Source: Dictyoglomus turgidum DSM 6724
Lineage (GTDB): Bacteria; Dictyoglomota; Dictyoglomia; Dictyoglomales; Dictyoglomaceae
Length of the DNA stretch: 64,000 nucleotides
Assembly: GCF_000021645.1 (NCBI RefSeq)
Contig: NC_011661.1
Span: 280,723 to 344,722 of the forward strand
Direction: 5' to 3'
In this document: piece by piece, positions 4,249-52,279 of the stretch
Numbering within the stretch: the stretch's first letter is position 1
Layout of the letters: each line of letters starts with the position of its first letter
The notes under the pieces: generated by a model
Told to the model about the DNA's origin: nothing
Database searches by the model: none
The model's input: the letters and a program-made list of their open reading frames with translations, nothing else
Program-made: the position numbers and the translations under genes

Positions 4249-4263
4249 AAGAGAAAATACATC

Positions 4264-4624: not shown

Positions 4625-4635
4625 ATTTTCACCTC

Positions 4636-5118: not shown

Positions 5119-5150
5119 ATAATTTCCTCCTCTTTATCCTTCTTATTGGG

Positions 5151-5181
5151 AGTATACAATTTGGAGTTTACTCTAAGTCAA
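5151..5181 (-). promoter_or_regulatory. MerR-type promoter of flavodoxin, 19-bp spacer with dyad operator
   Basis: On the minus strand a -35 TTGACT (5176-5181) and a -10 TATACT (5151-5156) are separated by exactly 19 bp. The spacer contains TTAGAGTAAACTCCAA, an imperfect dyad. An overlong spacer with a central palindrome is the signature of promoters that MerR proteins untwist to activate. The regulator encoded in the same operon is truncated. Confidence 0.78.
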
Positions 5182-5562: not shown

Positions 5563-6438
5563 ATGGAGGTTAAAAGAATTTTAGGAGCTATGTTTTTAAA
5601 TCTTTTTATGGCACTTTTAGAGGTTCTTGGTGGAGTTTTTTCGGGGAGTTTAGCACTTATAAGTGATGCTCTTCACAATATTAACGATTTTTTTGCTTTG
5701 CTTATTAGTTATCTTGCGGAAATAATTTCTAAAAACAAAAAGAGTAATTTAAATCACACCTTTGGATTTAGAAGAGTAGAGATTCTTGCTGCCCTTTTAA
5801 ATGGTGTTTTACTTCTTGGAGTTTTTTTATTTTTGATTATAGAGGCTTTTGGTAGGATAAAATCTCCAAAGGAAGTAGAAGGGATTCAAACGGTTATAAT
5901 TGGAGTTATAGGTCTTGTAGGTAATATTCTTGGAGCCTCACTTCTCCATGAAGATTCTCATCATAATTTAAATATTAAAGGTGCTTTTTTACATCTTCTT
6001 TCTGATGCCATATCTTCGGTAGGAGTTATTATAGGAGCCTTATTTATTATTTTTTACAGACTTTATGTTGCGGATACCATAATGTCTCTTCTTATTGCGG
6101 GATTTATTTTATATAGTTCTGTAGATCTAATTAAGGAGACCATACATATATTGATGGAAGGAACTCCAAAGGGACTTAATATTAATGAAATTCAAAAAAT
6201 CATATGCCAAATTTCTGGAGTTAAAGATATACATCATATCCATGTTTGGCAGATATCTACTAAGGATTATCTTTTCTCAGCCCATGTGGTGGTTGAGGAT
6301 CAAAAGATCTCAGAGGCTCAAAAAATAATTTCTCAAGTAAAGCAGGCTTTAAAGGATAAATTTAACATACATCATTCAACCATTGAGATAGAATCTGAGG
6401 ATTTGCTTAAAGAGAAGGAGTGCCAGTGTGAATACTGA
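5563..6438 (+). CDS. Cation diffusion facilitator (Zn/Co/Cd exporter, CzcD-like)
   Basis: A 291-residue integral membrane protein with six hydrophobic segments and a cytoplasmic C-terminal ferredoxin-like domain. The membrane metal site is visible as SDALHNINDFF in TM2 and HLLSDAISS in TM5. Family members exchange Zn2+ or Co2+/Cd2+ for protons to lower cytosolic metal. The end is cysteine- and acid-rich (KEKECQCEY), which may touch metal. ATG 5563 has GGAGGT at a normal distance. The 3' end overlaps the YgiQ-like gene by 11 bases, so the two are co-translated. Metal preference cannot be fixed by eye. Confidence 0.9.
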   Translation: MEVKRILGAMFLNLFMALLEVLGGVFSGSLALISDALHNINDFFALLISYLAEIISKNKKSNLNHTFGFRRVEILAALLNGVLLLGVFLFLIIEAFGRIKSPKEVEGIQTVIIGVIGLVGNILGASLLHEDSHHNLNIKGAFLHLLSDAISSVGVIIGALFIIFYRLYVADTIMSLLIAGFILYSSVDLIKETIHILMEGTPKGLNINEIQKIICQISGVKDIHHIHVWQISTKDYLFSAHVVVEDQKISEAQKIISQVKQALKDKFNIHHSTIEIESEDLLKEKECQCEY

Positions 6439-8197: not shown

Positions 8198-8251
8198 AAA
8201 ATGAGACAAAAAATTATATAATTTAAGCTGTATAAAAGGAGGGGAAGTTAA

Positions 8252-10454
8252 ATGGGGGATAATCTTAAAAATATTCTCAGAATAATTCTTATATATCTTG
8301 TTATAGGCATATTTTGGGTATTTTTGTCCCATCGGTTTATAGATGTTCTGGTAAAAAATGCAAATATCATACCTTTGGTGTATGCTCTAAATAGAAAAGA
8401 AAAGAAGAACTTATTAGGAAGATTCAGATAGAAAAGGAGAATTTTAGTAATCTTGTTAGTATAGCTAATGATATAGTGGTTATGTTAAATAAAGTTGGAA
8501 ATATTCAGTATATTAATGATCGTGGATGCCAGTTATTAGGCTATGAAAAAGAAGAAATCTTAGGAAAAAAACTGGTTTGAAAATTGTTTACCTTCAAGAG
8601 TTAGGAATGAGATTGAATCGGTTTTTTATAGGATTCTGAATGGAGAGGAGTCTTTGCTAGTAAAAGAGGTTAAAAATCCCATTTTGACTAAAAATAAAGA
8701 AGAAAGAATTTATCTTGTGGAATAATACTATTATTAAAGAGAACAATAAAGTGAAGGGAATATTAAGTTTTGGAAAAGATATCACTGATGGAGATTTTAA
8801 CTCTGCACTCTATGCTTTTTTGAAAAAAGTTTGTGAGTTCTTTTTTGCACCTTACGGAGAAATGTGGACTTTGGATAGTAAAGGTAGGAAGCTTATTCTT
8901 TCCAACGTTTTTATGCAAGAGAAGATAAATATAAGGGGTTTTATAAAAGAAGTAAAGAACTTTCTTTTTCTCCTGGAGAAGGGGTTCCAGGTAAATGCTG
9001 GATGAATTTAAATTACCTAATAATAGAGAACTTACAAGAGAGAGCAGAATTTATAAGAAAAGAGTTGGCAAAGGAATTTAATCTAAATTCCTTGATAGCC
9101 ATACCTATCTATAGTGAGAATGAGTTTATAGGCGTATGTGATAAAAAGAAGACAGAACTATCTCCCTCTCTTGCAGTTCAGATTGCAAGAGTCTTTGAGA
9201 CTAAAAAGAGTATAGCAAAGATTCAAGAATTGTTAAGATTAATTGATATTTCTGATGATGCAATAATTGTATTAGACGAGGAAGACAAGGTTTTATTTTG
9301 GAATCAAGGCGCAGAAAAACTATATGGTATATCTAAGATGGATGCTTTAGGAAAGAATATCAATAAGATTCTTTCTTACTCTTATGAGGCTATTAAAGGG
9401 AAGCTTATCAGTAAAAGAAAATGGATAGGAGAGATAGAACAAAGAAAAAGTGGCGGAGAAAGAATATTAGTAGGGAGTTTTATGGAGCTTGTAAAAAATG
9501 AGGAAGAAGAGGGTTATAAAATTTTTATAAGAAATACAGATATTACTTTCATTAGAAGGCTTCAAGAACAGTTGAATAGGGCTCAGAAACTTGAGAGTAT
9601 TGGAAATCTTGCAAGTGGCATTGCTCATGACTTGAATAACATTTTTACTCCTAAAAATATAGATATAAAAATTGAAATTTCTGGAGAGCTTCATCCTATA
9701 TTAGGAGACCCTACTTCTATAAACCAGGTGCTTCTGAATCTCTGTGTAAATGCAAAGGATGCAATGCCAAATGGTGGAGTTCTTACTATAAAGGTAGAAA
9801 ATGTTTATATTGATGAGGATTATGCTAAGTGGAATCCTATGTCAAAGGTGGGAGATTATGTGGTGATTACAGTAGCAGATACAGGGATAGGAATCCCTAA
9901 GGATGTAATGGACAAGATCTTTGATCCTTACTTTACTACAAAAGGCGAGAAAGGAACGGGCTTAGGACTTTCTACGGTTTACACTATTGTAAAAGAGCAC
10001 GAGGGATTTATAAATGTATACAGTGAGGAAGGGAAGGGAACTGTTTTTAAAGTATATATTCCAGCTATAAGCAATCATAAAAATAAAAAGGAGGAAGATA
10101 GAAAAGAGATCTCTGAAAAAAAGAGTTATGTTTTAGTAGTTGAAGATGAAAAGCATATTAGGGAAATAGTAAAAGATATGTTGGAGAGGAATAATCTCAA
10201 CGTACTTTTGGCAGAAAATGGAAAAGAAGCTGTAAAAATTTTGGAGAAGAATAAGGAGTTAATAAACCTTGCTATTGTGGATTATAACCTCTCAGACGTA
10301 AAAGGGGATGTACTTATTGGGGAGATTAAAGCTATGCTACCTGAATTAAAGATTATACTTATGAAAAATAAACAATATTCCTGCAGATAGTTACTTAAAG
10401 AAGCCCTTTAAGAAAGAAGAGTTACTAAGGATAATAGAAGAACAATTAGGTTAA
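8252..10454 (+). pseudogene. Hybrid PAS/GAF sensor histidine kinase, multiply broken
   Basis: ATG 8252 has GGAGGGG upstream and starts a membrane-anchored N-terminus. Conserved sequence then continues through different frames: a PAS domain (NDIVVMLNKVGNIQYIND), a GAF domain (SFSPGEGVPGKCW), a second PAS (DDAIIVLDEEDKVLFWNQG), HisKA (GIAHDLNN), HATPase and a receiver (VVEDEKHIREI). Frameshifts fall near 8410, 8570 (in a run of A), 8715, 8955 and 10365. In addition, the region between NNIFTP and KNIDIKIEI is fused in frame with the second dimerisation helix missing, roughly 70 residues. The receiver phospho-acceptor segment AIVDYNL remains. The last 27 codons, ending SYLKKPF and so on, are in another frame. 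No full-length product is possible. Confidence 0.88.
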
Positions 10455-11371
10455 AAGATTGGATTCTTTTTCAATTTTAAGAATTTTGTCCCATATTTCT
10501 AAAGCACAATCTACTAATTTTGGATCAAACTGCAAACCCTTTTGTTTTATTAATTCTTCCTGTATCTTTTCTTTTGGCATAGGATCCTTGTATGGTCTTT
10601 TGGAGAACATAGCATCTATTGCATCCGCAATACAGACAATTATTCCTTCTACAGGGATGTCTTCTCCTTTTAAGCCATAAGGGTATCCCGCTCCATTCCA
10701 TTTTTCATGATTTCAAGTTCTTCTGCAGTTAATTTTCCTGATTTTAAAAGTATACTATCAGGAATTCCTACTTTTCCTATATCATGAAGAGGGGCAGCTA
10801 ATTTTAAGGAATAGCAATACTCAGGGGAAAAACCTAAGGCATTAGCAAATTCATAAGCAATATTTCCAACTCTTATGGTATGTTCATGAGTTTCATCATC
10901 TCTAAATTCAGCAAGGAGATTGATTCTTTCCAAAAGCTCCATGGTTAACTCTTTATTTTCTTGCAGAAGTTTATTAATACTTTCTTCTGCTATTTTATAA
11001 GAAGTTTTTAAACTTTCTAAAAAACTCTCTCTAAAAGCATAAAAAAATTTTGCTCTTTTAGCAAGCTCTATTCTTATTTTAAGAGTAGTCATATCTATAG
11101 GTTTGACTGAGAAATCATCTGCACCAGCTTCTGCACACTGTTTCATGGTTTCCTCATCTCCATATGCGGTAAGCATAATCACCAATATATTTCTTTTAGT
11201 TTCTCTAATTTTTTTAAGGTAGTTATTCCATTCATTTCAGGCATTTTTACATCAAGGAGAACAATATCAGGATTTTCTTTCTCTAAAATTTTAAGAGCTT
11301 TAACTCCATTTTCTGCAAGAAAAGGTTTCTCTTATAAAGGGTTCATCGTCAACTACCAGTATCTTTTCCAT
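10446..11371 (-). pseudogene. Response regulator with HD-GYP phosphodiesterase domain, broken
   Basis: From ATG 11371 the frame gives MEKILVVDDEPFIRETF, then stops. The receiver continues in another frame (FLAENGVKALKILEKE, then LLDVKMPEMNG), shifts again near a run of A at 11215, and joins the ORF 10670-11185 (LTAYGDEETMKQC, then HDIGKVGIPDSILL of the HD domain). After EELEIMK the GYP part reappears out of frame as WNGAGYPYGLKGEDIP and runs to TAA at 10446. About 35 residues that normally lie between those segments, including an HH metal motif, are missing. HD-GYP proteins degrade cyclic di-GMP. This one cannot. Its end overlaps the end of the convergent kinase pseudogene by nine bases. Confidence 0.88.
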
Positions 11372-37384: not shown

Positions 37385-39085
37385 TTACTTCTTCCAGAAC
37401 TCTACCATTTCTCTAATCTGTTTTGTTTTATATTCTTCATATTTTTTAGCTCCAAGTTCATCTAAGCCTTTCAAAAATTCATTCCATATCTTATCAAAAT
37501 CTTTTGTAGGTGCCATTATTACTTTTGGAATATTTTTTATAACATAATCAAAGAGCTTATTTCCTATGGCACGCATATCCTCGTCAGGTGTTGGATACAT
37601 CCATAAATATCCCCAGGTTTTTACTGGATATTCTTCTGCTTTGGGGAATAAATCTTTCCAAATCTCTGCTTTATATGCTGCAAGAACCTTCTTCTCAACT
37701 TCTGTGTAGTTCTTTCTGATATCTTCTTTAGTGGTATCTGGTACAATGGGATTTCCAGTAGAGTCTATGTAATAATTAGGAAGTCGAGGCCATGGATATA
37801 CGTACACACCTATTCCTGTTTTTCTACCAAAGTATGGATCTGTTCTTCTGGCTTGGTCTACGTCAGGTAGGAATTGTCTTTTTCCATTAATATATATGTG
37901 ATGTACACCTTCTATTCCCCATTGCCTTAGTATATTTGCATCCTCAGTGCAGAGCCAATCCAAGAACTTTATTGCCCTTACGGGATCTTTACAACTCTTA
38001 GTTATAGCTATCCCCCATCCTCCTGTATATCCTACTCTTACGTCAGGTGGAGCTTGCTTAATCCTCTCGCTTACTGTTACAGGATAATATCCATACATGT
38101 ATTCATATTTTCCTGCCTTTCTTAGTGCTGTTATTGGCTCTCCTACAGCCCATCCAGCATCAATTAAAGCAAGTACTCTACCACTGGCAATTTTAGCTTT
38201 GTAAGTGTCTTCTTTTTGTATGAAGGTTTCTCTATCTAAGAGTCCTTCGTTCCACATGTGATTGAGCCATCGGAAATATTCTTTCTCTATGGGTCTCTTG
38301 TAGTGGAAAGTGCATTTTAAAGTTTTTGGATCCACATATAGTTCTCCATCATCAGGGGCTCCTGTGGCTTGAAAGGCAGGATTTGTAACGCTTATAACTG
38401 TTCTCCAGTCATCGGCACAGAGGGTAAGGGGTATAGTGGGAAGACCATCGGTTAAAGGATGTTTCTTGTAGTAGGCTTTTATAGCATTTTCAAAATCTCT
38501 TAAAGTTCTTATTCTGGGATATCCAAGTTCCATTACTACTCTGTGCTGGAGCATGAATCCACCGTTTACATCAAGAGTTCTATCATTATCAGTGGTTAAA
38601 CCGAGGCAGTAAATATGAGGGTCTTCTTTGCTCCATTTTAGTCTCTTTAGGTTCTCACCATAGGCCTTTTTAATATTTGGTGCGTATTTTTCTATTAAAT
38701 CATCAAGGGGTATTAAGGCTCCCGCATCTTTTAGCAAGGATAAATCTCCTTTTGCGTAGATCAAATCAGGATAGTCTCCGCTTGCAGCCATGATTTGTAT
38801 TTTTTCTCTTACCGCTGCTTGGTTAGGAGCATATTCTATATCTAAGGTTACTCCCGTAAGTTCTTTGATTTTTTGGGCCACAGGACTCTTAAATTGATCA
38901 TCATTAGGGTTTACTTCTCCAATATATACTTTAAAAGTTATAGGCTTATTAGCTTCAGGCGTAGGATTCATTGGTTTGTATAATTTGGCTTGAGCATTTA
39001 CTTCTCTTATGCTTACACTAAATATAAGGCTAATTACCAATATAGATGCTAAAAACCAACTTAAGAATTTTTCAGCTTTTCTCAA
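37385..39085 (-). CDS. ABC sugar transporter solute-binding protein (LplA/YtcQ-type)
   Basis: The best start is TTG at 39085. TTAAAGGGGGG stands seven bases upstream, and the product then begins with a normal signal peptide (RKAEKFLSWFLASILVISL, cleavage near VNA). The longer frame to 39151 adds 22 residues with a poor GTG start. The 566-residue protein is of the large LplA/YtcQ class, with VTLDIEYAPNQAAVREKIQ, GDYPDLIYAKG and RVGYTGGWGIAITKSCKDP. It binds oligosaccharides for the two permeases encoded just upstream. No ATPase gene is present, so a shared MsmX-like ATPase is expected. Confidence 0.88.
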   Translation of the reverse strand: MRKAEKFLSWFLASILVISLIFSVSIREVNAQAKLYKPMNPTPEANKPITFKVYIGEVNPNDDQFKSPVAQKIKELTGVTLDIEYAPNQAAVREKIQIMAASGDYPDLIYAKGDLSLLKDAGALIPLDDLIEKYAPNIKKAYGENLKRLKWSKEDPHIYCLGLTTDNDRTLDVNGGFMLQHRVVMELGYPRIRTLRDFENAIKAYYKKHPLTDGLPTIPLTLCADDWRTVISVTNPAFQATGAPDDGELYVDPKTLKCTFHYKRPIEKEYFRWLNHMWNEGLLDRETFIQKEDTYKAKIASGRVLALIDAGWAVGEPITALRKAGKYEYMYGYYPVTVSERIKQAPPDVRVGYTGGWGIAITKSCKDPVRAIKFLDWLCTEDANILRQWGIEGVHHIYINGKRQFLPDVDQARRTDPYFGRKTGIGVYVYPWPRLPNYYIDSTGNPIVPDTTKEDIRKNYTEVEKKVLAAYKAEIWKDLFPKAEEYPVKTWGYLWMYPTPDEDMRAIGNKLFDYVIKNIPKVIMAPTKDFDKIWNEFLKGLDELGAKKYEEYKTKQIREMVEFWKK

Positions 39086-39163
39086 ATTGAATCCCCCCTT
39101 TAAGGTATTTTTTGTTGTTTCTAAAAATTTTGAAAAGAATGTTTTAAGCACCCCCTTTCTTTT

Positions 39164-40054
39164 TTAATTCTTTATGGCACCAAGGGTCATTCCTTTTATA
39201 AAGTATTTCTGCAAGAAGGGATAAACTAACACTATGGGAAGTGTGGTTATTATGGTCATTGCCATTCTTAAAGACTGGGGAGTTACCCTCATAGTTCTTG
39301 TAGGATCTAAATTACTATAGTAGTCTATAGTAGTAGAGCTTGCTGCAGCGTTGGCTAAGATTTTCTGAAGTTCATATTGGAGGGTGGTTAGATTTTTATT
39401 ACCTCCACAGTAGAGGTAAGTATCAAACCAAGAGTTCCAATGTCCCACTGCTACAAATAATGCTACTGTGGCTAAAACGGGTAAGGAGAGGGGTAATATT
39501 ATTTTAAGGAAAATTATAAAGTCATTGGCACCATCAATCATCGCTGATTCTTGTAATTCCGAAGGAAGAGTATCAATATAGGCTCTAATTAAAATTAAAT
39601 TGAATGGATTTATAAGTCCCGGAAGAATATAAACAAGAAAATTATTCATGAGTCCAAGACCTCTTATTAAGAGGTATTCAGGGACTAAACCTCCACCTAC
39701 ATACATAGTTATGACAAAAAGAGTTGTGATTAATTTTCTTGCAAAAAAATCTCTTCTGCTTAAAACATAAGCTACAATGGCTGTAGAGAAAACTCCTATT
39801 ATAGTCCCTATTATGGTTCTCAAAGTAGATATTAATGCAGCTCTTCCTATACTCGGATAATTAAAAATTTCCTTGTAGTTGTCTAAGGTAAAAATTCTTG
39901 GGAAAATGGTAATTCCACCTTTTATAGTATCAAAAGGATCATTTAAAGATACTGCCAACACATATAGAAAAGGATACAGGGTAATTATTACTAATAGGAT
40001 CATTAATCCATAATTTACAATATCAAAGGTCTTCTCCCCAAGACTTCTTTTCAT
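39164..40054 (-). CDS. ABC sugar transporter permease (LplC/YtcP-type)
   Basis: A 296-residue permease with six membrane helices. The EAA loop reads ESAMIDGANDFIIFLKIILPL. The start DIVNYGLMILLVIITLYPFLYVLAVSLND and the end KGMTLGAIKN are typical of the LplC/YtcP branch of carbohydrate permeases. It is the second gene of the minus-strand operon and precedes the binding protein. The order permease B, permease C, binding protein matches YteP-YtcP-YtcQ-type systems. Confidence 0.93.
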   Translation of the reverse strand: MKRSLGEKTFDIVNYGLMILLVIITLYPFLYVLAVSLNDPFDTIKGGITIFPRIFTLDNYKEIFNYPSIGRAALISTLRTIIGTIIGVFSTAIVAYVLSRRDFFARKLITTLFVITMYVGGGLVPEYLLIRGLGLMNNFLVYILPGLINPFNLILIRAYIDTLPSELQESAMIDGANDFIIFLKIILPLSLPVLATVALFVAVGHWNSWFDTYLYCGGNKNLTTLQYELQKILANAAASSTTIDYYSNLDPTRTMRVTPQSLRMAMTIITTLPIVLVYPFLQKYFIKGMTLGAIKN

Positions 40055-40064
40055 GATAATCCTC

Positions 40065-40979
40065 CTAAATAATTCTGTAGCCTGTTACTTTTTTAGTAAT
40101 TTTATTAGCTGAAAAAAGTAAGATTAAACTTATTACTGATTTGAATATTCCTGCAGCAGTGCCAAAGGAAAATCTTCCTGCCCTTATTCCATAATCAAGG
40201 GCATAAAGGTCAATCACATCAGACACATTTCTTACTGCGGAAGTTCTTAAGAGAAATTGTCTTTCAAAACCTATGTTTATGATATTACCTATGCTTAAAA
40301 TTAAGATCATTATTACTGTGGGCATGATTCCAGGTAGAGTTATGTGCCATATCTTTCTAAATCTACTTGCTCCATCAACTTCTGCAGCTTCGTATAGTTC
40401 GGGATTAATAGAGGTCATTGCAGCTAAAAAGATAATTGTATTCCAGCCAACTTCTTTCCATATATCGGAGAATACTACAATCCACCAAAAATATTTAGGT
40501 TCCCCAAAAAAGAGTATAGGCTGTTTTATAAGTCCTAATCTCAGAAGTAAATAATTTACCACACCGTCAGGAGCAAGCATAGCATGCACAATACTTGCTA
40601 CTATTACCCAAGAGACAAAATGGGGAAGGTAAGAGATGGTTTGTACAGTTCTTTTAAAGGCAGTACATCTTATCTCATTAATCAATATAGCAAGGATAAT
40701 AGGAAGGGGAAATCCAAAAATGAGACTCAGAATACTCATTGCTAAGGTATTTCTCATTACAAGATAAAATTCAGGATCAGAGAACATCTCTTTAAAATAC
40801 TTCAAACCAACCCATTGTTGCTGAAATATAGGAAGGCCGGGCTTATAATTTTGGAAGGCGGTAATCCACCCCCAAAGGGGGACATATCTAAAGATAATAA
40901 GCCATATTACGAAAGGAAGAACCATAATTATTAAATATTTTTGCTTCTTTATTGTTTTTAATGTTTTTACAAAATTCAT
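40065..40979 (-). CDS. ABC sugar transporter permease (LplB/YteP-type)
   Basis: A 304-residue permease with six helices. The N-terminal YVPLWGWITAFQNYKPG and the EAA loop YEAAEVDGASRFRKIWHITL are signatures of the LplB/YteP branch. It is the first gene of the operon, with AGAGGGGA before ATG, and is transcribed away from the broken YesM gene. In YesMN systems the two-component pair controls the transporter beside it. The 148-base region between them holds the control sites. Confidence 0.93.
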   Translation of the reverse strand: MNFVKTLKTIKKQKYLIIMVLPFVIWLIIFRYVPLWGWITAFQNYKPGLPIFQQQWVGLKYFKEMFSDPEFYLVMRNTLAMSILSLIFGFPLPIILAILINEIRCTAFKRTVQTISYLPHFVSWVIVASIVHAMLAPDGVVNYLLLRLGLIKQPILFFGEPKYFWWIVVFSDIWKEVGWNTIIFLAAMTSINPELYEAAEVDGASRFRKIWHITLPGIMPTVIMILILSIGNIINIGFERQFLLRTSAVRNVSDVIDLYALDYGIRAGRFSFGTAAGIFKSVISLILLFSANKITKKVTGYRII

Positions 40980-41127: not shown

Positions 41128-42597
41128 ATGAGAAAGTTTCAAGATCTAAAGCTAAAGGAAAAGTTAATATTGTCCTTTATAGTGGTATCTTTTATACCTA
41201 TACTTATTCTTGGAACTGTGACTATTATTCATTTTAGAGATTTTGCTCTAAGTTCTTCAGCAAAGGAAATTTACAATGAGCTTAATCTCGCAAAGCTTAA
41301 GATTATGGAGATGACCAATGAAGCAGTTAATACAGCAAATAAACTGATGATTGATCAGAGATTAAAGGAACTTTTACTTTATAAATATACATCTCCATTG
41401 GAGGCCTATTTAAGATATTCTCAGTATAAGGATATAGAAAACTATAAGACCCTTTATGCAAAAGCTATTTATCGCATAAGAATATATTCAGAAAATCCTA
41501 CGATTTTAGAAAATGGTGTATTTTGTAAGACTAAAAAGGAAATAGAGCAAGAAGAATGGTATAAACTTGCAGTTCAGCTTAACGGTTTTATCATCTGGGA
41601 TCTAATTTATCAAGATGTTTATAATGAAAAATTTGGAGTCTTAGTTATTAACCTAAATAAGTTAGAAATGAAAGACCTTTAATATAGATTTACAAAGGAT
41701 TTTATCTGAAAAGGGATACACTTATGAATTTAATAACAAAAAGTATAGAGTTTTTGGAGTTTATCTTCCTTTAACGGGGTATAATAAGGATTTTTATCTT
41801 ATTTCTATCGTACCTCTGGAAGTAATCATGAAAGAACCTAAAAGAATGCAGGATTTTGCCATAACAATAATTTTTATTGCTTTTATAAGTTCTATGGTTT
41901 TTGCAGGGATCTTTTCAAGAAGTATGGGTAGAAGAATTGCAATTTTAAATAAAGCAGTAAATGAGATCTCTCACGGAAACTGGGATCTTAATATTCCACT
42001 TCAGGGGAAGGACGAAATAGGGGAGCTTTCGGAAAATGTGAAAATGATGGCAAGGAATATTAAAAATTTGAATGAACTTATAATCAAACAAAAAGATATG
42101 AAGTTTAAAACTTTAATGGAACAACTTAATCCTCATTTTTTGTTTAATACCTTGGAAACCATTCATATGATAGCGGTATGTAATAATCAAAAAGAGATTG
42201 CGGATGTGGCATTGAGACTTGGAAAAATCTTGAGAAGATCTTTAGAAGCAAAGGGGAAGCCTGTAAGTATTGAATGGGAACTTGATCTTTACAGATATAA
42301 GGGAAGTATATATACTTCCCTTTTTGATCCAGCCTATAGTAGAAAATTCTGTAGTTCATGGGATAGAGCCTAAGAAAGGATAATGGTGTGGGGATGGAAA
42401 ATCTGGAGTTGGAGAAGATTTTAAATGAAGATCAAGAAAACTATTCCAAGATAGGTTTAAAAAATACCCTTGAAAGAATTAAGTTGTTTTATGGTAATGA
42501 GTATGGTTTAAAAATAGAAACTCAGAAAAACGTAGGGACAAAAGTAGATATTATTCTTCCTTATGCAACTCTGAGAAAGGAGAGAGTTGATGTATAA
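41128..42597 (+). pseudogene. YesM-like sensor histidine kinase, broken
   Basis: The N-terminus (membrane helix LILSFIVVSFIPILILG and a dCache-like sensor) is open to TAA 41680-41682. The sensor continues one frame over as LQRILSEKGYTYEFNNKKYR, then a second helix, HAMP (SRSMGRRIAILNKAVNEISHG) and the His_kinase core with MEQLNPHFLFNTLETIHM. It then loses about 25 residues, resumes out of frame as LIQPIVENSVVHGIEPKK, loses another 20-25 residues, and resumes as DNGVGMENLELEKI. The rest reads to TGA at 42597. So there are at least three lesions, and the ATP-binding site is split. Its regulator partner next door is intact. Confidence 0.9.
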
Positions 42598-44074
42598 GGT
42601 ATTTATCGCCGATGATGAATACTACATAAGGGAAGGGTTAAAGAGGATTGTTAATTGGGAAAGATTAGGATTTAAGATTGTAGGAGAGGCGGAAGATGGT
42701 ATTGAGGCTTTAGAGAAGATAAAAAGGATAAATCCTGATCTTTGTGTGATAGACGTTAAAATGCCAGAAATGGATGGACTTGAATTGATTTCAAATATTA
42801 AATCCTATAAAAATTCTACTAAAATAATTATTCTTACAGGATACCCTGAATTTGATTATGCCATAAAAGCCATTGAGTTAGGAGTCAATTTTTATATATT
42901 AAAGCCTGTGGATCCTGAAATTTTGAAAGAGAAATTAGAAAAGGTTTATCATGAATTAGAGAAAGAAAGAATTTTATATGAAAGTTCAAAGGGAAGGATA
43001 ATGGAGAGATTTTTGAAAAAGCATTTAGATGTGAAGGAAGATGAGATAAATAATATCTTTTGTCTTGATCTTCCTTGGAATTCTTATCAGGTTGTTTTAG
43101 TGGATTGGGAGGATAAAAGTTTAGACAAGATTAAGGTTTTAGAAGATATTTCCTATTATTTTCCCTTTTCTTTTTTAGTTGATAATTTTATAGGCTTTAT
43201 TATTAAGGACTTTAGTAAAGAGAAAAGAAAGCTCATAAATTTAAGAGATCATCTAAGAAACAAATATAGAGATTATTTTTGCTTTTCCATTGGAGAAAAA
43301 GTGTATGATTTTTTGAGCATTTCATCCTCTTTTGAGAAGGCGAAGTCTCTTTTCTCAAGAAGATTTCTATATGAGGAGAAGGGTTTCTTAGTTTATCCTA
43401 AAGGAAAGAAAAATTTAAAGCCACATTTAGAATTGGAAAAAATAAATAATGTGGCACTTTGGGTTGAGGTTATTGAGGATCTTGATTTTGTTAAGCTTTG
43501 GGAACTTTTGGAGGATAAGATGATAAAACATATGGTTTATGAAGATGAGGAACAAGAGATAAAGTTGAGTTATTTTAACCTTTATGTAGATATAGTTACT
43601 CTACTTATCACAAGATACTCACAGTTTAAGGAAAAATCTTTCAAGTATCTTAAGAACAGGATTTTTGAAGAATTTTTTAATAAAAGAACAATAATTGATC
43701 TCCATGTTTTTACAAAAGAAATTTTAACTGAGTTAATTAGTGATTTTTCGGAGATTATGGGAAGAAATCCTCTTGTAAAAATTACCGAATATATAGAATC
43801 TAATTTTTACAAAGATCTTAAATTGAAAGATGTGGCAAAGGAATTTGGCTATAACCCTTGTTATCTTGGAAAAATCTTTAAAAAGTATACAAAGGAAAAA
43901 TTTAATACCTATCTTGATAGAGTGAGAATAAATAAGGCAAAGGAGCTTTTAAGAAGGGGGTTGAAAGTCTCAGAGGTGGCAGAGATGGTAGGCTACAAGG
44001 ATACAGACTATTTTATATGTAAGTTTAAAAAATATACAGGGAAATCTCCCCAGAATTTTAAGGAAAGTATTTAA
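42590..44074 (+). CDS. YesN-like response regulator, AraC-type DNA-binding
   Basis: A 494-residue regulator from ATG 42590 (AAGGAGAG upstream). The receiver holds ADDEYYIREGL, phospho-acceptor Asp55 in CVIDVKMPEMDG, the switch Thr in ILTGY and Lys in LKPVD. A long middle region (residues 125-390) resembles the YesN linker. The C-terminal AraC domain has two helix-turn-helix units: LKLKDVAKEFGYNPCYLGKIFKK and LKVSEVAEMVGYKDTDYFICKF. YesN proteins activate sugar transporter and hydrolase genes. The start overlaps the end of the broken kinase by eight bases. With YesM broken it must be controlled by another kinase, act without phosphorylation, or be idle. Confidence 0.92.
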   Translation: MYKVFIADDEYYIREGLKRIVNWERLGFKIVGEAEDGIEALEKIKRINPDLCVIDVKMPEMDGLELISNIKSYKNSTKIIILTGYPEFDYAIKAIELGVNFYILKPVDPEILKEKLEKVYHELEKERILYESSKGRIMERFLKKHLDVKEDEINNIFCLDLPWNSYQVVLVDWEDKSLDKIKVLEDISYYFPFSFLVDNFIGFIIKDFSKEKRKLINLRDHLRNKYRDYFCFSIGEKVYDFLSISSSFEKAKSLFSRRFLYEEKGFLVYPKGKKNLKPHLELEKINNVALWVEVIEDLDFVKLWELLEDKMIKHMVYEDEEQEIKLSYFNLYVDIVTLLITRYSQFKEKSFKYLKNRIFEEFFNKRTIIDLHVFTKEILTELISDFSEIMGRNPLVKITEYIESNFYKDLKLKDVAKEFGYNPCYLGKIFKKYTKEKFNTYLDRVRINKAKELLRRGLKVSEVAEMVGYKDTDYFICKFKKYTGKSPQNFKESI

Positions 44075-44082: not shown

Positions 44083-45489
44083 TCATCTTCCCCAAATCTT
44101 GAAGGTTATAGGGTAATTCAGCTTTTCAAATTCAGGAATTTTTATTTTTAATCCCTCCTCATTTCTTTCAAATTTAAGCTCTCCTTTTAATCCCAAAAGC
44201 TCAACCTTTGCTACTTCTTTTTGGTATAAAGTAAGTTCTGTGCTTAGTGATTTTATCACTATCTCATCCTTTTCAGGCTTATTCATGAGAATGGCATAAA
44301 GGGTATCTCCTTTTGTAGTAAATCTTAAATCTCTTCCTGTATAGTTAATTTCCTTCTCACTAAAAGATCCCGCATTTCCTTTTGTGGGTCCCTCCCCATA
44401 AATTCTCCATGGTCTTGTTCCATAAATTGCTTCTCCATTTTTAAGTAGCCATTCTCCTATCTCAAGAAGAGTTTTTTGAGCTGCTTCTGGTATGGTTCCA
44501 TCTGCTTTTGGTCCTACATTAAGTAATAAGTTGCCATTTTTACTTACAATGTCTACAAGTTCCCATATTAACTCTTTGGCGGGTTTGTAAATATCATTTT
44601 CTACATATCCCCAAGAAATCCTTGATATAGAAGTATCAGTCTGCCAATATATGGGATCAATATCCCCTAATTCCCCTCTTTCCACATCAAAGACTGCACA
44701 TTCCCTTGGTACTGCATTCAATTTATAGTTAATTACCACACCTTTCCCCCATTCATGGGCTCTATTATAGTAATAAGCAAAAAACTTTTTTAGGTATGGT
44801 TCAAAGGCAGGTTGTTCTATCCACCAGTCAAAATATACTACTTGAGGTTGATATTTATCCACTATTTCCAAAAGACGAAGAAGCCAATCTTCTAAAAATT
44901 CCTCAGTGGGCTGCATGGGTTCTGGTTGGGCAGGTCCATATAAATCAAAATAATCTTTATCTCTTACATCGGAATCAAATTTCATTCCCTCATGGAAAAA
45001 CCACCAATGCTCTGCTCTATGATAAGAAATTCCAAAGGTAAGAAAATTTTCTCTCACGGCTTTTGCCAGCTCTCCAATGATATCTCTTTTTGGCCCCATC
45101 TTGCTTGCACACCATCTGGTAAAACTACAATCATACATAGCAAAGCCATCATGGTGTTCTGCTACAGGCACCACATATTTAGCGCCTGCTTTTTTAAATA
45201 AATCTGCCCATTCATATGGATCAAACCTTTCTGCTTTAAAAAGATGTATAAAATCTTTATATCCAAATCTTTTGTGCTCTCCGTAAGTTTTTATATGGTG
45301 TTCATATTCGGGCGTTCCTTCAATATACATATTTCTTGGATACCACTCATTACTAAAGGCAGGAACCGAATAAACACCATAATGGATGAAAATTCCAAAT
45401 TTGGCATCCTTGTACCATTCTGGAATTTTATAGTTTTTTAATGACTCCCATGTGGGCCTAAAAGGACCTTCTGGCATTTTGTACCTCAT
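44083..45489 (-). CDS. GH29 alpha-L-fucosidase
   Basis: A 468-residue GH29 enzyme. Conserved blocks are FGIFIHYGVYSVPAF, the EHHDGFAMYDC pair of histidines, RDIIGELAKAVRE, and VVYFDWW with nucleophile Asp221. The end of the barrel has NLLLNVGPKADGTIP, and a C-terminal beta-sandwich follows. No signal peptide is present, so it acts in the cytosol on imported oligosaccharides. It releases L-fucose from alpha-linked chains. It lies beside the YesMN/LplBCA importer and near GH31 and GH3 genes. It converges on the regulator gene with only eight bases between stops. Confidence 0.92.
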   Translation of the reverse strand: MRYKMPEGPFRPTWESLKNYKIPEWYKDAKFGIFIHYGVYSVPAFSNEWYPRNMYIEGTPEYEHHIKTYGEHKRFGYKDFIHLFKAERFDPYEWADLFKKAGAKYVVPVAEHHDGFAMYDCSFTRWCASKMGPKRDIIGELAKAVRENFLTFGISYHRAEHWWFFHEGMKFDSDVRDKDYFDLYGPAQPEPMQPTEEFLEDWLLRLLEIVDKYQPQVVYFDWWIEQPAFEPYLKKFFAYYYNRAHEWGKGVVINYKLNAVPRECAVFDVERGELGDIDPIYWQTDTSISRISWGYVENDIYKPAKELIWELVDIVSKNGNLLLNVGPKADGTIPEAAQKTLLEIGEWLLKNGEAIYGTRPWRIYGEGPTKGNAGSFSEKEINYTGRDLRFTTKGDTLYAILMNKPEKDEIVIKSLSTELTLYQKEVAKVELLGLKGELKFERNEEGLKIKIPEFEKLNYPITFKIWGR

Positions 45490-45620: not shown

Positions 45621-46013
45621 ATGAACAGAAGCGATGATTGGTTAAAACAGGCTAAAAGGGATTATGAGAAAGCTCTTCTTGATTATGAACACTCATTTTA
45701 CGAGTGGGCTTGTTTTGCCTCTCAGCAATCTGCTGAGAAAGCAGTAAAAGCTTTATATTATAAGTTAAATAGAGCTGTAAAAGGACATTCAATAGTAAAG
45801 ATGCTTGATGGCTTAAAAGAGCTCATAGATGTGAGTGATGAAATTTATCATAGAGCAAGGATTTTGGATAGGTATTATAAGGAAAGTAGGTATCCTAATG
45901 GATTTCCTGAAGGAAGTCCTTATGAATTTTTTGATAAAAAAATTGCAGAGGAGGCTCTAAATGCTGCACGAGAAATTATTGGGTTCTGTGAAGATATTAT
46001 CAGTAGATTATGA
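45621..46013 (+). CDS. HEPN domain protein (toxin-like RNase)
   Basis: A 130-residue all-helical protein of the HEPN family. The N-terminal WLKQAKRDYEKALLDYEHSFYEW and FASQQSAEKAVKALYYKLN are standard for it, and the catalytic Rx4H motif is present as RAVKGH. The end has RYPNGFPEGSPYEFF. HEPN RNases cleave RNA and are usually paired with a minimal nucleotidyltransferase (MNT), which follows and overlaps by 53 bases. The pair is a type VII-like toxin-antitoxin module, or a small defence/regulatory device. GAGGGA stands upstream of ATG. Confidence 0.87.
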   Translation: MNRSDDWLKQAKRDYEKALLDYEHSFYEWACFASQQSAEKAVKALYYKLNRAVKGHSIVKMLDGLKELIDVSDEIYHRARILDRYYKESRYPNGFPEGSPYEFFDKKIAEEALNAAREIIGFCEDIISRL

Positions 46014-46326
46014 TGCTTTAATAAATAAATTAAAAGAGATATCCTTTTTCATAAAGGAAAAGAATAGTAAAGTTATTAAGATTATGCTTTTTGGTTCTTT
46101 TGCAAGGGGAGATTATACTCCAGAAAGTGATGTGGATATAATGATTATAGTAAAAAATTCTGAAAAACCTTTTCTCTTTCGAGCTGATGAGTTTTTGGAT
46201 TATTTTAAAGAAGTTCCCTTTGACGTGAATATAATTGTTTATACAAAAGATGAAATTGAAAAGATGGAAAAGGATAACAATATTTTTATTAAAGAGGTTT
46301 TAAGCTATGCTGTGGAGCTTGGGTAA
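45961..46326 (+). CDS. Minimal nucleotidyltransferase (MNT), HEPN partner
   Basis: A 121-residue protein of the pol-beta superfamily. The active-site motif LFGSFARGDYTPESDVDIMI has intact GS, RG and DxD residues. MNT proteins may add AMP to the HEPN toxin and so silence it. The frame begins at ATG 45961 inside the HEPN gene; a GTG at 45985 is another possible start. Overlapping genes ensure that toxin and antitoxin are made together. Confidence 0.88.
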   Translation: MLHEKLLGSVKILSVDYDALINKLKEISFFIKEKNSKVIKIMLFGSFARGDYTPESDVDIMIIVKNSEKPFLFRADEFLDYFKEVPFDVNIIVYTKDEIEKMEKDNNIFIKEVLSYAVELG

Positions 46327-46330: not shown

Positions 46331-46738
46331 TTATCTTAAGTTTTCCTTTAACCAATTTTTGAAATTGTTTAGGTCCTCTTCCACAATGCTCCAATTTTTT
46401 GTTATTTTTTCTTTCAACATATTTACTTTTTCTGGAATGATTTCATAGTTATATGCATGCCTGAATATATATCTAAATCCTCGGAGTTCATTTAAAATAA
46501 TAAAACTTTCCTTTGAGAGTACCTTAGGTCTTATTCCTGGAATTTCTATGGACATTCTTTTTAAAATCTCTTTATGAAAGAAGGATGCATTGTATAGATT
46601 GTGTAGGTTATAGGCTAAGTATATGGTTTTTTCTTTCATCTCTGGGTTAATGTTTTGTATTTCTCTGTATATTTTCTTAACTTCTTCCTCTTGAGAAAGG
46701 ATATATCCTAAAAGAAAGCTTAATCTTTCCTTCTTCAT
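46331..46738 (-). CDS. HepT-like RNase toxin (HEPN superfamily)
   Basis: A 135-residue helical protein. The segment LNELRGFRYIFRHAYNYE contains an Rx4HxY motif (RYIFRHAY), the catalytic mark of HepT toxins. The N-terminal half (LAYNLHNLYNASFFHKEIL) fits the HepT helical bundle. Its start overlaps the stop of a nucleotidyltransferase gene (ATGA overlap), as usual for MntA-HepT operons. Here the partner is frameshifted, so either this toxin is already inactive or another MNT protects the cell. It converges on the HEPN-MNT module with four bases between stops. Confidence 0.8.
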   Translation of the reverse strand: MKKERLSFLLGYILSQEEEVKKIYREIQNINPEMKEKTIYLAYNLHNLYNASFFHKEILKRMSIEIPGIRPKVLSKESFIILNELRGFRYIFRHAYNYEIIPEKVNMLKEKITKNWSIVEEDLNNFKNWLKENLR

Positions 46739-47155: not shown

Positions 47156-49483
47156 TTACAACTCTATAGTAATCTCTTTAATTTTCTTTTCAGGTACAAT
47201 TTTTATACCTTTTTCGGTTCTTTCTATTTTTCCACCAGTAATGTTTTTAGCCTCATTTATATTGAAGAGTAATATAGAATAGGGTTTTTCAGAATCTTTT
47301 TCTACGTTTATCTTTATTATGTTTTTCTCTTTAATAAGATTTACTTTTAAATCTACTTTTCTTTCTTGGTTGTAAACCTCGCAATATATTTTCTTTCCCT
47401 CTTGGGGCTCAAATACATATAAGATTACATTATTAGCATAATCATAGTCAGGTTTTTCTTTGTTTTCTCCCATAGGGATAATACTTCCCGGTCTTGCCAT
47501 AAGGGGTAAGGAGAAATAATCAAACTTTTCTTTATACCATTTTCCTCCATCTTTTTTCTCGCCTGTCAAAAGATTGGTCCAAACTCCTACATTGGGAAGG
47601 TAATATTCTACCTCTCCTGTTTCCGAGAATATAGGTGCTACTAATAGGGAGTCTCCTAACATATACTCCCTGTCTAAAAAATGGCATGTAGGATCTTCTT
47701 CAAATTCAAGTACCATTGCTCTTAGCATTGGAATTCCCTTTTCAACTGCTTCTATTGCCTTTGCGTATAGATATGGCATAAGATTACATTTTAAGTTTAC
47801 AAAAAATCTCAACACATCTACTGCTTCTTCATCATACACCCATGGTACTTTATAATCATGATTTCCATGGAGTCTGGAATGGGAAGAAAGAAGTCCAAAG
47901 GCAACCCACCTTTTATATAGATCAGGGGTTGCAGAGCTGTCGAATCCTGCTATATCATGACTCCAAAAACCAAATCCACAAAGTCCTAAGGACAATCCTC
48001 CTCTTAAGGTTTCTGCCATGGACTCATAAGTAGAGAGACAATCTCCTCCCCAATGTACTGGGAATTTTTGACTTCCTGCTGTAGCAGATCTTGCAAAGAC
48101 CATGGCATTTTCCTCTCCAAGCTCTTCCTTAAGGGTTTCAAAGACGGTCTTATTGTAGAGGTAGGTATAAAAATTATGCATCTTTTCTGGATCAGATCCA
48201 TCATAATAGACCACATCTGTAGGAATTCTCTCTCCAAAATCGGTTTTAAATACGTCAACTCCCATTTTTATTAACTTTTTTAGGTAATTTGAGTACCAGG
48301 CTCTTGCAGAGGGATTTGTAAAGTCTACGATTCCCATACCAGGTTGCCAGTCATCGGTTTGCCATATACTACCATCAGGCTTTTTCAAAAGATATCCCTT
48401 TTCTTTTCCTTCTTCAAAAAGTTTTGATCTTTGGGCAATATATGGATTTATCCATACACAGATTTTTAACCCCTTTTCCTTTAATCTTTTTAACATTTCT
48501 TCAGGATTAGGAAATACCCTATCATCCCATTCAAAGTTTACCCAATGATATTCCCTCATCCAGAAGCAATCAAAGTGGAATACATGAAGAGGAATATTTC
48601 TTTCTTTCATTCCTTCTATAAAGCTGGTCACTGTTTTTTCGTCATAATTGGTAATAAAAGAGGTGGTAAGCCAAAGACCAAAGGACCAAGAAGGAGGAAG
48701 ATGGGGTCTTCCTGTAAGAAGGGTATAGTTTTCAAGAACCTCCTTTAAGTTTTCTCCTCCAATTAAAAAATAATTAATTCTTTCTCCAGGAACACTAAAT
48801 TGTACTCTTTCTACATGTTCTGTAGCAATTTCAAAGGATACCTTCTCAGGATGATTTACAAAAACCCCATAATCTCTATTAGTTACATAAAAAGGAATGT
48901 TTTTATATGTCTGATCTGATACTGTGCCTGCGTCTGCATTCCACATCTCTACAGTTTGCCCATTTTTTATAAAAGGACCAAATCTTTCTCCTAGTCCATA
49001 TACTAATTCTCCTACTCCAAGGTCTAAGCTTTCTATCGTGTAAGTTTTTTTGTTCTCATCTATAGCATATGCCATATGTTTGTGCCCCGAAGAAGTAAGT
49101 TTTTTGTCTTTCCAGTAAAAGGTATATTGAAAAGTGCCTTTTTTGTTTATCTTTACCTTTAGGTTTCCTGACTTTAGTATAAGAAAATCCTCCTCATCTA
49201 ATATCTCAGGCTTATATTTCTTATCCCTATTTATCTCAAATTCTGGTCCTTTTTCTATCACTCCCTTAAAGTGGTATGAGATAACTTCTATGATATTGGG
49301 GAAAGGTGAGGAGAAATGAATCTCAAAAAGAGGACCATATAAAGTTTCACCACGGTTTTTAACAAAACTTGAAGGAGCATAAACTACTATTTCCTTTTCT
49401 TTAATTTCATAATCCCAAAGAATGCATGGATAATGAATTTTTATTCCCTCTCTTACTCTCCAATGTCCATCGGTAAATTTCAT
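47156..49483 (-). CDS. GH31 alpha-xylosidase (YicI/XylS-like)
   Basis: A 775-residue GH31 enzyme. The N-terminal beta-sandwich holds GELVYGLGERFGPF. The barrel contains HVFHFDCFWMREYHW, ICVWINPYIAQRS, and the nucleophile Asp415 in FKTDFGERIP, a motif specific to YicI-type alpha-xylosidases. ARSATAGSQKFPVHWGGDC and WSHDIAGF follow. The enzyme removes alpha-linked xylose from non-reducing ends of xyloglucan oligosaccharides. No signal peptide is present. It lies 12 bases after the GH3 gene and is expected on the same transcript. Confidence 0.94.
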   Translation of the reverse strand: MKFTDGHWRVREGIKIHYPCILWDYEIKEKEIVVYAPSSFVKNRGETLYGPLFEIHFSSPFPNIIEVISYHFKGVIEKGPEFEINRDKKYKPEILDEEDFLILKSGNLKVKINKKGTFQYTFYWKDKKLTSSGHKHMAYAIDENKKTYTIESLDLGVGELVYGLGERFGPFIKNGQTVEMWNADAGTVSDQTYKNIPFYVTNRDYGVFVNHPEKVSFEIATEHVERVQFSVPGERINYFLIGGENLKEVLENYTLLTGRPHLPPSWSFGLWLTTSFITNYDEKTVTSFIEGMKERNIPLHVFHFDCFWMREYHWVNFEWDDRVFPNPEEMLKRLKEKGLKICVWINPYIAQRSKLFEEGKEKGYLLKKPDGSIWQTDDWQPGMGIVDFTNPSARAWYSNYLKKLIKMGVDVFKTDFGERIPTDVVYYDGSDPEKMHNFYTYLYNKTVFETLKEELGEENAMVFARSATAGSQKFPVHWGGDCLSTYESMAETLRGGLSLGLCGFGFWSHDIAGFDSSATPDLYKRWVAFGLLSSHSRLHGNHDYKVPWVYDEEAVDVLRFFVNLKCNLMPYLYAKAIEAVEKGIPMLRAMVLEFEEDPTCHFLDREYMLGDSLLVAPIFSETGEVEYYLPNVGVWTNLLTGEKKDGGKWYKEKFDYFSLPLMARPGSIIPMGENKEKPDYDYANNVILYVFEPQEGKKIYCEVYNQERKVDLKVNLIKEKNIIKINVEKDSEKPYSILLFNINEAKNITGGKIERTEKGIKIVPEKKIKEITIEL

Positions 49484-49495: not shown

Positions 49496-52279
49496 CTATT
49501 CAAATCTAAACCAGTTTATTTTTAATCCTTTTTCTCCCCTTATGTATAGGTCATGAACACCCTCAATATTTTCATCCAAAAGATAAACGATTTCTCTCCA
49601 TTCATTATTAGTATCCAAAGTTTCAAAAGAAAATTCTTTATCTATTTTGCTAAAATTTAAAATTATTTTGGAATAGTTTGAAGAAATTTCCATGACAAGC
49701 CTTTTAGGCCTACTGTAAAACTCCAGATCTCTGAAGAGAATATAAGAGTTGTTATCATTAAAGATCACATAAGTTTCTTTGAAATTTCCCTTTGTATTAA
49801 AAGATACATTATAACAATCGTCAAAATTAAAGGCTTTTGTTTTATTAAAAGGGTCTCTATTTTTAATCTCTTCTCCTTCCACATAAATTTTATCCCTTAA
49901 TTTAATATCCTTAGATGATGCTCCAATAAGAATTTCATATTCTCCTTTTTCTACAAGATATCTTTTTTGCCTTACGTCCCATATGAAAAGATCTGATACA
50001 GGAATAGTTATCTCAATTTTTCTTTTTTCTCCTTTTGGAATAAAGACTCTTGTAAATCCTTTAAGTTGTATATTAGGTCTTTTGACTTTTGAATTTAGGG
50101 CTCTCACATATACTTGTGGTACTTCATCGGAGTCCATATCGCCAGTATTCTCAATTTCAAAACTGATTTTTATCTCCTCGTTTAATTTAAAGTTTTTTGA
50201 GTTTAAAACTAGATTTTTGTATGTAAACTCTGTATAAGTTAAACCATGTCCAAAGGGGAAGAGAGACTCTTTGTCGAAATACATATAAGTTCTCTTACCC
50301 CTGATAATATCATAGTCAGTAATAGGTGGAATGTCATGAATAGATTTATACCAGGTCATACTTAGTCTTCCTGCAGGGGAGAAGTTTCCCAAGAGAATAT
50401 CCGCTATGGCATTTCCCATTTCTTGCCCTCCATGGGAAGACCAGAGAATGGCAGGAATATGATCCTTTTCCCAAGAAATGGCATAAGGATAACTACTTAT
50501 TATAAGTAATACTACATTGGGATTTACCCTGAATACTTCTTTTACTAAATTTTCCTGATGTTCAGGAAGGACTATGTCAATTCTATCTTCATCTTCTCTT
50601 CCATTTACCATGGGATTATTGCCCACGCATAAAATTACCAGATCTGAATTTTGAGCAATCTCACAAGATTTCTCTATACCTTTTTCTATCTTCTCAATAA
50701 TGAATTTTTCTTCGGGCAGATTTTCAAAGGTATCTTTAAACTTTAGTACATTTCCTTTTCTCTCATCTATATAGGCATATTTTCCATTCCAGGTTTTAAT
50801 GAGGTAAGTTCCATCTCCAAGAGGATCAATGTTAAAAAGTTCCTTTACAAACCATCCAAATACTTCTTCTGATGCAGAAAATATGGCTGAAGTGCTATCA
50901 TCACAGGTTAAGTATTTCCTATTTGCTAATCCTTGAAGGCTTTTCTTTCCCCATCCCCAATCTATGTATTTAAAACTTTCTCTTTCGGTTATTTTATCGC
51001 TTATTGCCCAAATAGGGCTTATCTCTGATTCTATAACTCTTAGATATCTATTGCTTTTAGCCGATTTTATTGCCACAGTATCGTAGGAGTCATGGTATAG
51101 AATTTCTTTGTCATAGAGTCTATTTATAATTCCTTGTAATATGGATACCTTATATGGATAAGTTCCACTATACCAATCATTATAGTTTTTGTGGGCAAGA
51201 GGTCCAATTACAGCAATTTTATTTATTTTATCTTTTTTGATGGGTAAAAATTTGTTTTCGTTTTTAAGAAGTACCACAGATTTTAATTCCGCCAGATAGG
51301 AAAGTTGAGAATGTTCCTTATCACATATCTTTGTAGGAGGAACATAGAATTTCTTACTTATCTCCTCATCAAACTCTCCTAATCTAAATCTTACTTTGAG
51401 AGAGTTTGATATGGCTTTATCTATATCTTCCTCAGTTATTAATCCTTTTTCTAAGGCTTGCCATGCAGATTCTATTACCAGATTAGGATCATCGGTGAAG
51501 GCGTCAATTCCAGCTTTTAAGGCATAGGCAAGGGTTTCATAGTGATTCTCAAAGGTTTTATGAGAGGTAACTGTTTGGCTAAAGTCTGCCGCATCGGTAA
51601 CTACGCATCCTTCAAGGCCAAATTTTTCTTTTACCACCTCTTTTACTATAGGATTTATAATACAGGGGATTCCATTTACCGCATTGTATGCTGTCATGAT
51701 GCATTGGGCTTTGTATTTTTCAATAACCCTTCTAAATACCTCAAGATAGTACTCATACATATTTCTCGGATCTATATTGGCTGAGAATTTATCTCTATCC
51801 TTTTCATTGTTATTGGCAAAAAAGTGTTTTGGAGTCATAGCAGTTTTAAGATATACGGGGTCCTCTCCTTGCATACTTTGTATATATGCACCTGCCATCT
51901 CTGAGGCAAGAAAAGGATCCTCTCCATAGCATTCCTCTGTTCTTCCCCAACGAGGATCTCTCCCCATGTCTACTGTTGGAGCCCAAAGCATAAGTCCTCC
52001 GATTTTACCCCTCATGTAATAATAGGCCCTTGCTTCTTGAGATACGACCTCTCCTATCTTTCTCATAAGATCTCTATCAAAGGAGGAGGAAAGTCCAATA
52101 GGCTGAGGAAAAACTGTGGCTTTTCCAAGCCAAGCAACCCCGTGAGCTGCCTCTCCTCCAATATAAAATTCGTGAATGTTAAGTCTTGGAATTTCTGCTT
52201 GTCTCGTGGGAAGAAGTTTTATCTTTTCTTCAAGGGTTAAGCGAGATACAAGCTCTTTTACTTTTCCTTCAATGTTCAT
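49496..52279 (-). CDS. GH3 glycosidase with inserted beta-trefoil-like domain and CBM6-like C-terminus
   Basis: A 927-residue GH3 enzyme, about 170 longer than the GH3 at 14612. The barrel has the GGEAAHGVAWLG and PKHFFANN blocks and nucleophile Asp229 in VVTDAADF. The sandwich domain begins ELKSVVLLKNENKFLPI but is interrupted at about residues 400-527 by a Trp/Gly/Lys-rich beta segment with three internal units (AIKSAKSNRYLRV; YLTCDDSTSAIF; YLIKTWNGKYAYIDE), as in fascin-like beta-trefoils. The sandwich resumes at DLVILCVGNNPMVNGRED. A fibronectin-III-like domain and about 120 more residues follow, the latter resembling a CBM6-type module (ends GLKINWFRF). It is probably a cytosolic exo-glucosidase or xylosidase. 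Confidence 0.88.
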   Translation of the reverse strand: MNIEGKVKELVSRLTLEEKIKLLPTRQAEIPRLNIHEFYIGGEAAHGVAWLGKATVFPQPIGLSSSFDRDLMRKIGEVVSQEARAYYYMRGKIGGLMLWAPTVDMGRDPRWGRTEECYGEDPFLASEMAGAYIQSMQGEDPVYLKTAMTPKHFFANNNEKDRDKFSANIDPRNMYEYYLEVFRRVIEKYKAQCIMTAYNAVNGIPCIINPIVKEVVKEKFGLEGCVVTDAADFSQTVTSHKTFENHYETLAYALKAGIDAFTDDPNLVIESAWQALEKGLITEEDIDKAISNSLKVRFRLGEFDEEISKKFYVPPTKICDKEHSQLSYLAELKSVVLLKNENKFLPIKKDKINKIAVIGPLAHKNYNDWYSGTYPYKVSILQGIINRLYDKEILYHDSYDTVAIKSAKSNRYLRVIESEISPIWAISDKITERESFKYIDWGWGKKSLQGLANRKYLTCDDSTSAIFSASEEVFGWFVKELFNIDPLGDGTYLIKTWNGKYAYIDERKGNVLKFKDTFENLPEEKFIIEKIEKGIEKSCEIAQNSDLVILCVGNNPMVNGREDEDRIDIVLPEHQENLVKEVFRVNPNVVLLIISSYPYAISWEKDHIPAILWSSHGGQEMGNAIADILLGNFSPAGRLSMTWYKSIHDIPPITDYDIIRGKRTYMYFDKESLFPFGHGLTYTEFTYKNLVLNSKNFKLNEEIKISFEIENTGDMDSDEVPQVYVRALNSKVKRPNIQLKGFTRVFIPKGEKRKIEITIPVSDLFIWDVRQKRYLVEKGEYEILIGASSKDIKLRDKIYVEGEEIKNRDPFNKTKAFNFDDCYNVSFNTKGNFKETYVIFNDNNSYILFRDLEFYSRPKRLVMEISSNYSKIILNFSKIDKEFSFETLDTNNEWREIVYLLDENIEGVHDLYIRGEKGLKINWFRFE

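Follow-up and report, generated by a model that had tools for sequence, protein, structure and literature searches.

PA14 modules of other GH3 enzymes are placed after strand k and before helix K in domain 2, an insertion found in two lineages and judged independent (PMC6987092), and in KmBglI one phenylalanine of this module belongs to subsite +1 (PMC9426481). Among carbohydrate-binding modules, the defining feature of CBM92 is a set of three WExF motifs, of which the Trp stacks and the Glu bonds a glucosyl unit (PMC11039641). At the level of gene clusters, R. cellulolyticum has a GH42/RR/HK/GH3/GH31 cluster together with an XXXG importer, and its GH3 enzyme Glu3A, which alternates with the alpha-xylosidase, acts only after the latter and is poor on cellobiose (PMC4780118). 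In D. turgidum itself, 16 enzymes, including two GH3, have been assayed (PMC5167688), a set that does not include Dtur_0321, the enzyme considered here.

The window that we analysed is a stretch of 64,000 nucleotides from the genome of the thermophile D. turgidum DSM 6724 (1,855,560 bases, single contig). Positions 49496-52279 contain one ORF, on the minus strand and free of internal stops, which we read as Dtur_0321 because its surroundings show the same gene order as the published table, where Dtur_0315 (GH29), Dtur_0320 (GH31) and Dtur_0321 (GH3) are listed in this order (PMC5167688). The features of the gene are given below in window coordinates, from the N-terminus to the C-terminus of the protein.

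49496..52279, minus strand: GH3 enzyme ORF of 927 residues, Dtur_0321 by position and published gene list
51407..52162, minus strand: GH3 N-terminal (beta/alpha)8 domain, residues 40-291 (PF00933, E 7.8e-40)
51593..51595, minus strand: catalytic nucleophile D229 (aligned to the D281N position of 8c7f; invariant in 83 sequences)
51092..51277, minus strand: (alpha/beta)6 domain, first part, residues 335-396, last element strand 392-396 (PF01915; DSSP of the model)
50684..51088, minus strand: predicted inserted fascin-like beta-trefoil, residues 398-532 (12 strands; Foldseek to CBM92, fascin and designed trefoils)
50957..50959, minus strand: W441, invariant, in the DWGWG turn (53/53; retained in the distant L107, L110 and L114)
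50840..50854, minus strand: W476-FVK-E480, in repeat 2, corresponding to a single Trp-Glu site of CBM92 (W and E in 53/53, K in 51/53; W476 aligned to the Trp of the CBM92 WExF motif)
50789..50791, minus strand: W497, in repeat 3 (invariant among the Bacillota/Dictyoglomota members)
50234..50683, minus strand: (alpha/beta)6 domain, second part, residues 533-682, first element helix 534-543 (Pfam; model)
50594..50596, minus strand: catalytic acid/base E562 (aligned to the E517Q position of 8c7f; invariant in 83 sequences)
49913..50125, minus strand: Fn3-like domain, residues 719-789 (PF14310, E 6.6e-24)
49502..49867, minus strand: C-terminal CBM6-derived module, residues 805-926 (by family; solved CBM6 matched by the family profile)

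The original prediction, made from the sequence of the window without naming a strand, described a GH3 enzyme, and this was borne out: the protein combines the PF00933 and PF01915 domains with an Asp nucleophile (D229) and a Glu acid/base (E562), the PF01915 (GH3_C) match spanning residues 335-682 across a gap (E 2.9e-53). Both catalytic residues were placed by phmmer alignment with the D281N/E517Q double mutant of the T. maritima beta-xylosidase (8c7f). The gap in the GH3_C match is where a beta-trefoil had been predicted within the second GH3 domain, at residues 400-527, limits that are correct to within a few residues according to the strands and the helix of our AlphaFold2 model. The model of the full protein (pLDDT 91.8, pTM 0.92) shows strand 392-396, then 12 strands over residues 400-532, then helix 534-543, with a trefoil symmetry of 4 + 4 + 4 strands, while the insert modelled alone, a prediction that had been proposed as a check of the fold, reached a pLDDT of 94.1. 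The best Foldseek matches of the insert model are trefoils as well (CBM92, fascin, designed trefoils), CBM92 reaching a TM-score to target of up to 0.87 with an rmsd of 2.3 A and 22% identity.

Sequence searches with the insert of this copy alone yielded only a weak FRG1 match (E 0.0018-0.0024) and CBM92 (7zoh) at E 0.057; the FRG1/HEAT matches of the single sequence, too weak by themselves, were dropped. At the family level, Fascin (PF06268) is matched by 34 of the 54 members searched against Pfam (E<=0.1, best 1.2e-6) and RicinB_lectin_2 by 22 of them, with L106 at full length exceeding the curated Fascin cut-off, and the family profile of the insert retrieves designed trefoils (2.1e-9), CBM92 (2.7e-7) and fascin (8e-4) from the PDB. 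The three repeats match one another (hhalign P 1.6e-5, 1.8e-4 and 0.017, as single comparisons of short profiles). Profile and structure thus support the threefold repeat of the original prediction, but the YLxxxxxGxY pattern on which it had relied occurs literally only once in the insert (YLIKTWNGKY, at 492). Altogether, family profile, AlphaFold2 and Foldseek support both the fold and its location, and the insert is, as modelled, a fascin-like beta-trefoil.

The trefoil is flanked by a strand (392-396) that we read as k and a helix (534-543) that we read as K, an assignment based on the order of the elements in the model, not on superposition. The suggestion that PA14 inserts are known at a similar place in GH3 enzymes holds for this k/K position (PMC6987092), and Pfam matches no PA14 in Dtur_0321 or in 54 family members. 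Dtur_0321 thus has the position of the PA14-type GH3s without their module: on the evidence of the model, an unrelated fold has been captured at the same spot, between the same flanking strand and helix.

Conservation within the insert is uneven. The commonest residue has a mean frequency of 0.51, vs 0.71-0.77 in the flanking catalytic domains, while W441, G442, W476, K479, E480 and W497 reach at least 95% against this insert mean of 51%; the best-conserved positions are Trp, Lys and Glu lying outside the strands, not core residues. In the Actinomycetota-like members, read by eye, W441 and W476 stay, W497 is gone in L110 and L114, and E480 is replaced by Q in L107. Repeat 2 reads W476-FVK-E-L-F, i.e., W-x3-E-x-F, and is the sole repeat with a Trp-Glu pair, which may work like one CBM92 site. 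As for assigning the insert to CBM92 itself, the three WExF motifs are not present and there is no such Trp in repeats 1 and 3, so that the insert falls outside this family.

For the C-terminal tail, predicted to be CBM6-like, a CBM6 ancestry is supported by its family, as CBM_6 (PF03422) is matched by 52 of the 54 aligned members (best 6.7e-27), but the Dtur_0321 tail by itself has no Pfam match to PF03422. Judged by its family, this copy would descend from CBM6 and have drifted below detection. At some positions that are conserved in other members, the Dictyoglomus tails deviate (T829 replaces E, Y846 replaces W), and ligand binding by the tail of Dtur_0321 is doubtful because of these replacements and of the missing CBM_6 match. 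In L114, L120, L122 and L123, the insert is present and the protein ends after the Fn3-like domain; because of these relatives, we regard the trefoil as the constant feature and the tail as optional, and, as far as such sequences tell, the tail cannot be essential.

Several neighbouring genes bear on the function of the enzyme:

47156..49483, minus strand: GH31 alpha-xylosidase of the YicI type, 12 bp downstream of GH3 (NF007940, 1296.7 bits, cut-off 606; PDB yicI, E about 1e-288)
44083..45489, minus strand: GH29 alpha-L-fucosidase (PF01120, E 3.5e-106)
42587..44074, plus strand: response regulator with AraC-type DNA-binding domain
39164..40979, minus strand: two ABC permease genes, 39164-40054 and 40065-40979 (PF00528; homologues recur beside GH3)
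37385..39151, minus strand: ABC solute-binding protein (SBP), close to the xyloglucan SBP Athe_2052 (9PMY; 976 bits over 536 residues)

The 9PMY protein binds XXXG with a Kd of 14 nM (PMC12710961), and it is because of the YicI-type alpha-xylosidase, the fucosidase and this SBP like an XXXG binder that we interpret the region as a xyloglucan-oligosaccharide locus. Against this interpretation, the importer genes lie at least 8.5 kb from the GH3 gene, with other genes between. Across 79 related loci, in which many flanks are incomplete so that counts are lower bounds, GH31 was found in 15, GH95 in 17, GH42 in 10, GH43 in 8, two-component genes in 22 and importer genes in about 16; 42 loci have at least one of these tracked genes, and the other 37 have none within the fetched flanks, which also counts against it. 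Two further observations concern the window. A sensor kinase gene (41128-42560, plus strand) beside the intact response regulator is in pieces that lie in different frames (3, 1, 2, 3 in tblastn with the L035 kinase), i.e., either a broken gene or sequence errors, and the regulation of the locus may be altered. Between the fucosidase and alpha-xylosidase genes, a HEPN gene (45621-46013) overlaps a nucleotidyltransferase gene (45961-46326), with a HepT-like gene (46331-46738) on the opposite strand; the segment 45621-46738 is likely a HEPN/MNT toxin-antitoxin pair.

The genome scan returned 79 loci with a related GH3, nearly all from Bacillota, and every near-full-length aligned relative carries the insert (122-162 residues). 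Altogether, about 80 loci share the design, from Bacillota (many from soil) and Dictyoglomota, plus Actinomycetota, the phylum in which we infer that G250 belongs. Profile searches found the insert architecture in 10 of 386 genomes domain-wide; within the phylum of G250 the count was 6 of 198, and within the class of G309 it was 8 of 198, some weaker matches being other proteins, e.g., GH18 and GH5 with CBM92-like modules. In a tree built from the catalytic domain only, the GH3s with the insert (23) and those without it (9) part at one branch (100/98), which supports a single origin of the insert-bearing enzymes within this sample of sequences (PA14 enzymes not included). Closest in the tree among the insert-free relatives is one from L031 (Bacillota), where its gene (3314-5482, 723 residues) and that of an insert-bearing GH3 (7965-10799) flank a GH31 alpha-xylosidase. 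In L033 (Paenibacillus sambharensis), two divergent genes for insert-bearing GH3s lie in tandem (4908-7919 and 7923-10793). As to localization, 82 of 84 members have no hydrophobic N-terminus, which fits a cytoplasmic enzyme; a Streptomyces-like member (L107:343-3324) has a probable signal peptide, and the same architecture may act outside the cell there.

A database search for the same domain order, another check that had been proposed, showed the architecture to be common in genomes, but no described enzyme with it, i.e., no GH3 with a fascin or trefoil insert, was found in the open literature (most subscription papers lay outside the search), where nothing on Dtur_0321 or Cst_c12090 was found beyond the genome paper. 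Within that literature, the architecture is therefore undescribed among characterized enzymes.

Taken together, these data lead us to propose that Dtur_0321 is a cytoplasmic GH3 retaining exo-beta-glycosidase of a xyloglucan-oligosaccharide utilization locus, with D229 as nucleophile and E562 as acid/base, in which the trefoil would form an aglycone (+) subsite and the CBM6-derived tail would be dispensable; we give this reading, taken as a whole, an even chance of being right. Its architecture, gene neighbourhood and catalytic residues are observed, as are the fold in the predicted model, the insertion point and, for the GH3s sampled, the common ancestry of those with the insert, while the place of the trefoil over the active site, its role as a subsite, the substrate and the order of action are what we infer from them. 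The original prediction, of an enzyme that might hold branched oligosaccharides across its active site, is plausible in this context, by analogy with subsite +1 of the KmBglI PA14 and in view of the genes of the locus.

One competing explanation concerns the substrate. Dtur_0321 could be a GH3 beta-xylosidase, or a broad beta-xylosidase/alpha-arabinosidase, acting on xylo-oligosaccharides or pentose side chains, its xyloglucan neighbours being partly coincidental. E43 is invariant in 83 sequences, and GH3 beta-xylosidases typically have Glu where beta-glucosidases have Asp (PMC6987092), which goes against a beta-glucosidase reading; moreover, the nearest NCBIfam models are beta-xylosidases (the top match, xylan 1,4-beta-xylosidase, being far below cut-off), the PDB entry best matched by sequence is the T. 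maritima beta-xylosidase, and GH43 is close to the gene in the 8 loci counted above. However, this Glu is not decisive, because the paralogues Dtur_0852 (L003) and Dtur_1723 (L002), as we matched them by position and order, share it in the alignment and hydrolyse beta-glucosides (PMC5167688). Given also the 12-bp linkage to a YicI-type alpha-xylosidase, the xyloglucan-type SBP close by and the GH95 and GH42 genes that flank relatives, we regard a beta-xylosidase as rather unlikely.

Two other explanations concern the trefoil. It might be an ordinary CBM92-like module that tethers the enzyme to glucan without contact with the active site, in agreement with CBM92 being among the closest folds (profile match E 2.7e-7) and with the Trp and Glu retained in repeat 2; yet WExF is absent from repeats 1 and 3, a polymer tether would hardly be of use to members that mostly appear cytoplasmic, and the trefoil is inserted at the PA14 point of the catalytic fold instead of being appended, so that we find a tether improbable. 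Fascin-like trefoils are also able to mediate protein contacts, and the low mean conservation of the insert would suit a dimerization or stability element that touches no sugar. This is very improbable in our view, since conservation peaks at Trp, Lys and Glu residues that lie outside the strands and not in the core, and since loss of the tail leaves the trefoil in place, both in mesophiles and in thermophiles.

A history of the insert can be sketched tentatively, with a little less than an even chance of being correct: a CBM92-like trefoil would have been captured once and early, at the PA14 spot, and turned from a binding module into a part of the active site, giving rise to an undescribed GH3 subfamily for imported xyloglucan oligosaccharides in at least three phyla. 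Were this true, one GH3 loop would repeatedly have taken up unrelated beta-rich modules (PA14 twice, PMC6987092; the trefoil here) and would be a general site setting aglycone specificity, while a large subfamily, tied to xyloglucan loci, would be recognizable from its sequence, with the three tryptophans as candidates.

Compared with known systems, Dtur_0321 resembles the PA14-bearing GH3 beta-glucosidases (KmBglI 3abz, DesR, BcpE2 7PJJ, RmBgl3B) in having a beta-rich module between k and K of domain 2, followed by an Fn3-like domain, but differs from them by its fascin-like trefoil and its CBM6-derived tail, and probably belongs to a separate GH3 lineage (the PA14 enzymes lying outside our tree). 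With CBM92 (CpCBM92A/B, 7zoh, 7zoi), it shares a bacterial fascin-like beta-trefoil and one retained Trp-Glu pair, whereas its Trp is found at one of the three sites, three residues separate Trp from Glu and the trefoil sits inside the catalytic fold instead of being appended to it. Aspergillus IpeA (5yot, 7eap), which acts on xyloglucan oligosaccharides, is alike in its GH3 core (fold match), but is fungal and has no trefoil listed; IpeA releases isoprimeverose and needs no prior alpha-xylosidase step. Finally, by neighbourhood, Dtur_0321 is like R. cellulolyticum Glu3A (Ccel_2454), a GH3 enzyme without signal peptide whose gene adjoins GH31, GH42, a two-component system and an XXXG importer.
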